DNA from: Alphaproteobacteria bacterium
GTDB taxonomy: Bacteria > Pseudomonadota > Alphaproteobacteria > Rhizobiales > CAJQND01
Length of the DNA stretch: 64,000 bases
NCBI GenBank assembly: GCA_024227565.1
Contig: JAAEUE010000271.1
Location: 62,001-126,000, forward strand
Reading direction: 5' to 3'
Within the stretch, counting starts at the first letter, position 1. Each line of letters opens with the position of its first letter. The translations under genes and the position numbers were made by a program. The notes below the pieces were generated by a model, which saw nothing but the letters and a program-made list of their open reading frames with translations, was not told the origin of the DNA and ran no database searches. Shown piece by piece: positions 3,123 to 4,880 of the stretch.

Positions 3123-3198
3123 GGTTGCGCTGAACACCTGCGGTGACGCGCGCAGGTCGGCCTTGGCGCCTATTGGGTTTCGCAGAATAATCAAGTTT

Positions 3199-3297
3199 TA
3201 TGATCTATATATCATAAAATATATTTATAAGGTATAGATCATATTTACAGTTTATGATCTAAATTTTATATTGCAACTTTATGAGGTTTAGATCATA
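3199..3297. promoter_or_regulatory. array of four HipB-type operators at exact 27-bp spacing
   Basis: Four 18-bp sites of the form TATGA-N8-TCATA lie at 3199-3216, 3226-3243, 3253-3270 and 3280-3297. The first and last match both half-sites exactly. The second has TATAA in the left half and the third TTATA in the right half. Start-to-start distance is 27 bases each time. The layout resembles the four TATCC-N8-GGATA operators of E. coli hipBA, with a different half-site. The array ends nine bases before the hipB ATG, so it should mediate autorepression by HipB or HipAB. Confidence 0.85.
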
Positions 3298-3299
3298 AT
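3271..3299 (+). promoter_or_regulatory. putative sigma70 promoter of hipBA, possibly leaderless
   Basis: TTGCAA at 3271-3276, a 17-base spacer and CATAAT at 3294-3299 give a good -35/-10 pair inside the operator array. The predicted transcription start falls at about 3306-3307, on the hipB ATG itself, and no Shine-Dalgarno sequence is seen before that ATG. Confidence 0.5.
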
Positions 3300-3306
3300 C
3301 ACATTC

Positions 3307-3558
3307 ATGACAGACCTCGCCCGGAACCCAAAGCAAATCGGCAACATCATCCGTCGTGCACGCAAAAAACTGAATTTAAACCAAACACAGTTGGGCGAAA
3401 AGGCTGGGCTGTGGCAAGAGACGATATCAATGATTGAGACGGGCAATCCGGCAACCAAGCTGGAAACCTTATTGATGATCCTTAGCGCGCTTGACCTCGA
3501 ACTCCAGATCGGACCACGCTCGAAAGGCCGCACCGAAGACATCGAAAACATATTCTGA
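3307..3558 (+). CDS. hipB: HipB-like antitoxin, HTH transcriptional repressor
   Basis: An 83-residue Xre-type helix-turn-helix protein, close in size to E. coli HipB (88). The HTH spans roughly residues 12-65 (IRRARKKLNLNQTQLGEKAG, then WQETISMIETG). The short tail after residue 70 would be the disordered part. As antitoxin it should bind HipA and repress its own operon through the four upstream operators. Its stop overlaps the hipA start by one base (tgATG), giving translational coupling. The module is more AT-rich than its neighbours upstream of the ATG, consistent with acquisition by transfer. Confidence 0.92.
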   Translation: MTDLARNPKQIGNIIRRARKKLNLNQTQLGEKAGLWQETISMIETGNPATKLETLLMILSALDLELQIGPRSKGRTEDIENIF

Positions 3559-4880
3559 TGCCCCGTCGTCGTCAGAACGTTCCTCTGCGTGTTTTCTTGA
3601 ACGACCGTTTCGTCGGCTCTCTCACCAAGGAGCCAAACGGCGCGATCGGTTTTCAGTACGATGAAAGCTGGTTGACATGGGAACATACCCTGCCGGTATC
3701 TCTGTCCCTGCCACTCCGAGAAACCGCTTTTCGAGGAGAAAAGGTTGCCGCCGTTTTTGAAAACCTCCTCCCGGATTCCGGTCCACTGCGCCGCCGTGTT
3801 GCAGAGAAAGTTGGCGCGAGAGGTACCGACGCATACAATCTTCTGGCCACCATCGGCCGCGATTGTGTGGGTGCACTCCAATTCATTCCAGAGGACGATG
3901 AGGCCGTCGATACGACCCGCGCGATCAGCGGCGATGTGGTCGATGATGAGGCCATTGAGAGCACACTGAATAATTTGAACCAGGCACCACTCGGCCTGAT
4001 TCGGGATGACGACTTCCGCATATCAGTGGCCGGCGCTCAGGAGAAGACCGCCCTGCTCCAGCATGACGGAAAGTGGATTAAGCCTCATGGTGCCACCCCA
4101 ACCACCCACCTCTTCAAAACACAGATTGGAGAACTGCCGAATAGCATTGACCTCTCCAACAGTGTCGAAAACGAGTTTTACTGCTTGAAGTTGGTTGGGG
4201 CGTTCGGCTTACCGGTAAACAATGCAGAGGTCAGAACGTTTGGAAAAACCAAGGCCCTCGTCATTGAGCGGTTTGATCGCAGATGGACAAAAGATGGGCG
4301 GCTCTTGCGCCTGCCACAGGAAGATTGCTGTCAGGCACTCTCCATACCCCCAACATTGAAATACCAAAGTGACGGCGGGCCAGGCATGGTTGATATCCTT
4401 GATCTACTTAAGGGGAGCGACACGCCGGCAGACGATCAAAAGGTGATCCTCAAAGCCCAGATCCTGTTCTGGCTCCTCGGGGCAACGGACGGCCATGCGA
4501 AAAATTTCAGCATCTTCATCGGGCCCGGCGGAAGTTATCGCCTGACCCCTCTCTATGACATATTAACGGCACAGCCTAGCCTCGACAGTCACCAGATCAA
4601 ACGCCGGCAGATGAAACTCGCCATGTCGGTGGGTACTAAGCGCCGTTACCGTATCGACAAGATCCATGCCAGGCACTTTATCCAGACCGCGAACGAAGCT
4701 GGAATGCCAAAGCTCCTGGCGAATTCGGCAATCGAAGAAATTGCGGACACAGCCGAAAAGGCGATTGCATTGGTCGAGAAAAACCTCCCCAACAACTTTC
4801 CCGGCGACATCCACGATTCGGTTTCCTCTGCTCTCACTGAACGTCTCAATAGCCTTAAACTGGTCGACGTGAGCGCTTGA
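3558..4880 (+). CDS. hipA: HipA toxin, Ser/Thr protein kinase
   Basis: A 440-residue kinase, the same length as E. coli HipA. HipA phosphorylates glutamyl-tRNA synthetase and causes persistence in E. coli; the target here is unknown. Residues 1-110 form the HipA N-terminal subdomain. ISVAGAQEKTALL carries the autophosphorylation Ser (156) and ATP loop. DGHAKNFSIF gives the catalytic Asp311, and LTPLYDILTAQP the metal-binding Asp334, matching E. coli S150, D309 and D332. All key residues are present, so the toxin should be active. It is convergent with the P450 gene 28 bases away. Confidence 0.95.
   Translation: MPRRRQNVPLRVFLNDRFVGSLTKEPNGAIGFQYDESWLTWEHTLPVSLSLPLRETAFRGEKVAAVFENLLPDSGPLRRRVAEKVGARGTDAYNLLATIGRDCVGALQFIPEDDEAVDTTRAISGDVVDDEAIESTLNNLNQAPLGLIRDDDFRISVAGAQEKTALLQHDGKWIKPHGATPTTHLFKTQIGELPNSIDLSNSVENEFYCLKLVGAFGLPVNNAEVRTFGKTKALVIERFDRRWTKDGRLLRLPQEDCCQALSIPPTLKYQSDGGPGMVDILDLLKGSDTPADDQKVILKAQILFWLLGATDGHAKNFSIFIGPGGSYRLTPLYDILTAQPSLDSHQIKRRQMKLAMSVGTKRRYRIDKIHARHFIQTANEAGMPKLLANSAIEEIADTAEKAIALVEKNLPNNFPGDIHDSVSSALTERLNSLKLVDVSA

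Follow-up and report, generated by a model that had tools for sequence, protein, structure and literature searches.

Among persistence modules HipBA is the founding one; in Escherichia coli the assembly bound at its promoter is thought to control release of the toxin. The window analysed here, a 64,000-nucleotide stretch of an alphaproteobacterial contig, contains a hipBA pair directly preceded by four 18-bp sites whose starts are exactly 27 bp apart (Table 1), described in the initial annotation as HipB-type operators of the form TATGA-N8-TCATA. Such an array raises several questions. Are the sites real, and what reads them? Is their equal spacing peculiar to this locus, and what maintains it? 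What determines their sequence? We regard the array as very probably the autoregulatory operator of hipBA, the TATGATC half-sites being read by the recognition helix of its own HipB and the phasing being predicted to reflect bridging by HipA.

Table 1. Features of the hipBA locus, with positions in the window.
Feature	Position	Strand	Description
operator O1	3199..3216	+	TATGATCTA (left), TATATCATA (right); full half-site left
operator O2	3226..3243	-	TATAAGGTA (left), TAGATCATA (right); full half-site right (minus strand)
operator O3	3253..3270	+	TATGATCTA (left), AATTTTATA (right); full half-site left
predicted -35	3271..3276	+	TTGCAA, in linker 3; family consensus TTGACA
operator O4	3280..3297	-	TATGAGGTT (left), TAGATCATA (right); full half-site right; right end overlaps -10
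predicted -10	3294..3299	+	CATAAT, end of O4 plus AT; 17-bp spacer
hipB	3307..3558	+	83-aa XRE/HTH antitoxin-repressor; HTH_3 5e-11; couple_hipB 6e-16; PDB HipB by sequence and fold
W36-Q37-E38 codons	3412..3420	+	N-terminus of recognition helix; alignment, AlphaFold model, residue-base association
hipA	3558..4880	+	440-aa Ser/Thr kinase toxin; HipA_C 9e-52, Couple_hipA 1e-26, E. coli HipA 1.7e-106

The two genes are predicted to form an E. coli-type HipBA type II toxin-antitoxin system, having its gene order, a full-length HipA with both domains, equivalents of all four catalytic residues (S150, K181, D309 and D332), the HipB fold and multiple palindromic operators. hipA overlaps the hipB stop codon by 1 nt at position 3558 (TGATG). 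HipB covers the whole of the NCBIfam model couple_hipB (Y4mF) with 58.1 bits against a cut-off of 71.65 and is not filed there; its AlphaFold model (pLDDT 89) has its best PDB matches in the HipB entries 8ezt, 2wiu and 4z5h and places the recognition helix at residues 37–44. By alignment, W36-Q37-E38 correspond to K38-Q39-A40 of E. coli HipB. In E. coli HipA, K379 and R382 contact DNA; N and G stand at their positions in the present HipA, which speaks against the model proposed below. E. coli HipA P86 and D88, sites of high-persistence alleles, are equivalent to residues 92 and 94, which are A and N at the present locus; A and S prevail there in the rest of the family. hipB was not found in the two related genomes sampled, one of the same genus and one of the same family, and thus the hipBA module may be accessory.

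The four sites lie where the initial annotation placed them: TATGA-N8-TCATA is exact at O1 and O4 and carries one mismatch at O2 and O3. The picture of a TATGA motif flanking a free N8 gives way to one of two 9-bp half-sites, with some constraint on the central N8. Every site joins a perfect TATGATCTA, the same in all four, to a degenerate half, the perfect half alternating between the plus and minus strands from O1 to O4 (+ - + -). Thus neighbouring sites are mirror images, and the array can be viewed as two inverted pairs with a repeat length of 54 bp. Chance palindromes would be favoured by an AT-rich spacer, and GC content is indeed 0.43 in 3201–3600 versus about 0.6 around it; nevertheless, none of 20,000 Markov-1 resamples of the spacer reproduced a four-site array with 27-bp steps, and none contained even three (at most two mismatches, any period from 19 to 40). 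Resampling, together with the conservation of the sites in homologues described below, refutes this explanation, to which we assign practically no probability. A pattern search of the 5.47-Mb genome for the pair TAT-N12-ATA / 9 bp / TAT-N12-ATA gave no second occurrence. The four repeats are almost certainly docking sites for their own repressor HipB, a binding predicted from sequence.

Upstream of hipBA in E. coli K-12, the operators O1–O4 are likewise four palindromes of 18 bp that share an invariant TAT...ATA frame, and the recognition helix is placed alike. As the initial annotation stated, they have the form TATCC-N8-GGATA, but their spacing is 28/39/28 bp, so that the equal spacing found here (27/27/27) is a real difference; TATCC goes with K38-Q39-A40 in E. 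coli, whereas TATGATC goes with W36-Q37-E38 at the present locus. In E. coli and close relatives, whose recognition residues are KQA, the step within pairs is 28 bp and, where four sites are clear, the step between pairs is 37 or 39 bp. Neither TATCC-N8-GGATA half-sites nor 28-bp steps with a longer gap occur at the present locus.

Is equal spacing then special to this locus? We gathered hipBA loci from genome contigs, a genome panel, plasmids, phage and viral contigs. Perfect TAT-N12-ATA pairs occur at a distance of 27 bp in 98 of 118 loci, at 54 bp in 77 and at 81 bp in 40, whereas the same test at the neighbouring distances gives 5 loci at 26 bp and 3 at 28 bp. When only the TAT...ATA frame is scored, 85 of 88 homologues fit a 27-bp period best, with a mean core score of 21.3 versus at most 14.3 at any other period. 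The signal is weaker with a model-free palindrome score alone (27 bp best in 54/88) because degenerate half-sites spoil palindromy. The 27-bp spacing is a rule across a large, mostly alphaproteobacterial hipBA family. The question set in the annotation, whether homologous loci keep the period, is thus answered by a clear yes, and the annotation's term HipB-type operators suits sites that precede hipBA in 27-bp phase with a half-site unlike that of E. coli; the period itself is the family norm, not a property of this locus.

The mirror order of full and degenerate halves is conserved across the family as well. Between adjacent sites, mirror similarity of half-sites is.54,.56 and.62 versus.41,.41 and.40 for direct similarity, with p from 2e-4 to 6e-11 for all three adjacent pairs (raw values that ignore relatedness), and the outer halves (O1 left, O2 right, O3 left, O4 right) are alike beyond what direct order predicts. 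The present locus has both marks of this 27-bp HipB operator array family, 27-bp TAT-N12-ATA steps and alternating full and degenerate halves. Could the period simply be left over from the recent tandem copying of one operator pair as a 54-bp unit, with no structural need behind it? Units 3197–3249 and 3251–3303 are 75% identical, O2 and O4 share AGGT, and copying may have been the origin of the array. Retention is not explained in this way: those 98 loci keep 27 bp despite diverged linkers and specificity bases, and the -35 element is in linker 3 but not in the other linkers. We consider recent duplication a very unlikely reason for the period.

The position of the promoter bears on how the array would work. 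Base frequencies of linker 3 in the family (T.92 T.90 G.78 A.52 C.51 A.51) describe a -35 element that is absent from linkers 1 and 2, and by consensus a promoter is predicted between O3 and O4. The end of the predicted -10 lies 7 nt ahead of the ATG of hipB, and the distance from O4 to the ATG is 8–9 nt in 53 of 105 homologues, as at the present locus, the others having a longer leader; this closeness to the start of hipB suggests that the hipBA mRNA is leaderless. The periodicity of the array places a second promoter-like pair, TTTACA-17-TATATT at 3244–3272, exactly 27 bp upstream of the first; in homologues, linker 2 does not conserve the -35 of this second pair.

We propose that HipB dimers bind O1–O4, each reading an 18-bp palindrome made of two 9-bp half-sites. 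As the predicted promoter lies within O4 and the O3–O4 linker, their occupancy would block RNA polymerase. HipA would act as co-repressor, HipAB units on neighbouring operators touching one another through a HipA–HipA bridge, and this contact would select for the fixed 27-bp phasing. The combination of a fixed phase and a drifting sequence is an argument for a defined geometry in which neighbouring HipAB units have to meet, and the 39-bp gap of E. coli, equal to 28 bp plus about one helical turn, fits with phase rather than distance being what matters. On straight DNA 27 bp makes 2.57 turns (27/10.5) and rotates neighbours by about 206 degrees, as in the annotation's view that adjacent dimers lie on different faces, and 54 bp makes 5.14 turns, bringing alternate sites nearly into line; bending makes these estimates only a guide, and E. 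coli HipB, which binds its four operators cooperatively with HipA as co-repressor, bends the DNA by about 70 degrees (PMC3920265). By analogy, cooperative autorepression by HipB and HipAB through an evenly spaced higher-order complex is likely, and such a HipAB-DNA assembly at the present locus is plausible.

Alternatively, the operators are real and 27 bp only positions HipB dimers relative to the promoter or to the nearest HipB, without a continuous HipA-bridged complex. Some homologues show only two or three clear sites, O1 being degenerate in about half, and the steps of the E. coli clade are unequal (28/39/28 and 28/37/28), as positioning alone would allow. Yet O1 and O2, well away from the core promoter, keep phase where they are present (the 81-bp pairs of 40 loci), crystal entries of the E. 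coli proteins contain HipB on O1-O2 (4yg1) and HipA-HipB on O2-O3 (5k98), and more than 95% of loci conserve the HipA residues G22 and D291, those of the hipA7 allele; the G22S change is considered to disturb dimerisation of HipA on the promoter (PMC7029023). Positioning alone therefore strikes us as a serious but less probable account, and HipA-bridged phasing is the reading we prefer. Going further, one might tentatively picture the equidistant 27-27-27 ladder as a single continuous HipAB-bridged assembly, unlike the two separate pairs of E. coli, in which a code in residues 36 and 38 re-targets systems and insulates co-resident hipBA loci, the present locus representing a convergent R-to-W switch; we hold this extended picture to be somewhat doubtful.

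What, then, determines the sequence of the half-sites? Their layout is TAT, four specificity bases (4–7) and A, and bases 4–7 vary from locus to locus in step with the recognition helix. TATGCGC-like sites go with R-Q-E HipBs and TATACGC-like sites with R-Q-A HipBs: base 4 is G in 95% of 170 RQE half-sites and A in 76% of 127 RQA half-sites, and the majority base per locus is divided G:A as 48:0 in RQE versus 4:31 in RQA, four RQA loci with a G majority being exceptions. Fisher and Wilcoxon p-values are raw and ignore relatedness. Base 4 follows residue 38 (E with G, A with A) and bases 5–6 follow residue 36 (R with CG, W with AT). When all 83 HipB columns were scanned, residue 38 ranked top for base 4 (MI.78, next.42) and residue 36 ranked top for base 6 after normalisation. 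Could shared ancestry alone produce this association, residues 36 and 38 not reading DNA at all? The labels are clustered on the tree, where the E/A label of residue 38 changes only nine times and W36 has two origins. Against this, residue 38 and base 4 change together in six independent pairs on the HipA tree and oppositely in none (p=0.03), both residues outrank the other HipB columns, matches were predicted in advance, and the residues sit at the recognition helix. Ancestry alone seems quite unlikely to us. The association suggests a simple protein-DNA recognition code in which HipB residues 36 and 38 set bases 4–6: Glu38 would specify G at position 4 through an atomic contact, and Trp36 in place of Arg36 would go with AT instead of CG at positions 5–6. 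In E. coli HipB, A40 corresponds to residue 38 and Lys38 to W36; Lys38 has been reported to contact DNA (PMC8420761). The code extends beyond the three tested classes: other helix types pair with other half-sites in steps of about 27 bp: VQK with TATCCC (L150), YQK with TATACC/TATCCC (L130), WQD with TATTGCC (L161) and RQS with TATTCCGG-like sites (L125).

The HipB of the present locus carries W36 in place of the usual Arg36. At least three TATGATC half-sites are found in 4 of 119 rows, all with W36, versus none of 107 R36 rows; single TATGATC halves occur in six R36 loci. The TATGA half-site put forward in the annotation is real at the present locus, and among homologues it is one of several types, tied to Trp36. 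One W36 locus, L123 (VWQET), belongs to the evidence that suggested the rule, and three were met after it had been set: L292 (LWQET), found by its helix sequence alone, shows four sites of TATGATC type in 27-bp steps; L295 (VWQRT), carried by a Leisingera plasmid, has four TATGATC sites; and L160 (VWQET) retains a single intact TATGATC half together with relics. The exception is L161 (VWQDT), which has W36 but TATTGCC sites, and together with the single intact half of L160 it indicates that W36 alone does not fix the half-site sequence. Among four new genomic matches to the DNA pattern for GLWQETI, only L292 is a HipB; L289–L291 match by chance, in unrelated ORFs. The tree requires two or more origins of W36, a number too small for a sign test, and the present HipB is 73% identical to R36 relatives and 53–55% identical to the TATGATC-carrying members of the W36 clade. 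The W36 change thus looks convergent rather than transferred.

Regularly spaced operators are known from other HipB systems. The hipBA1 and hipBA2 promoters of Caulobacter crescentus have inverted repeats at regular intervals (PMC7029023), three operator sites each (PMC8545095); the passages of the two papers available to us give neither the precise spacing nor the half-site and propose no recognition code. In Legionella, a HipB homologue reads the HipBST operators, inverted-repeat sites of 18 nt at even spacing, but with 53-bp gaps, 6-nt repeats, three sites and a tripartite HipBST (PMC10653801); intermediate occupancy is possible there, in contrast to the cooperativity of E. coli (PMC10653801). 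In Shewanella oneidensis HipB also sits on a palindromic operator with HipA (PDB 4pu3/4pu4), although its HipA is far less similar to the present HipA (E 1.8e-28) than that of E. coli (1.7e-106). Searches of the papers open to searching, for a 27-bp HipB array and for a HipB residue-base code, found neither; regularly placed inverted repeats in hipBA promoters of alphaproteobacteria had been noted before, for Caulobacter. The data show an operator geometry held at 27 bp throughout a broad family, mostly of alphaproteobacteria, that differs from the 28-bp type of E. coli, and a sequence specificity that is free to change via two recognition-helix residues. A readable code would allow prediction of operators and of cross-talk between HipBA paralogues, and the natural variants in spacing and helix are material for probing the higher-order HipAB-DNA model.

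Scans of viral contigs with degenerate array patterns returned 115 stretches each, the pattern being too loose; the sole hipBA locus among them, L196, is weak, has an RVA helix and fails the 27-bp fit. hipBA loci with operator-like arrays are also present on IMG/VR viral contigs, in the unverified phage record MT836721 and on alphaproteobacterial plasmids (L141–L145, L293, L294, L295). L131 has a stop codon inside hipB and a hipA split into two frames, and its operator-like sites remain, as in a decaying module.
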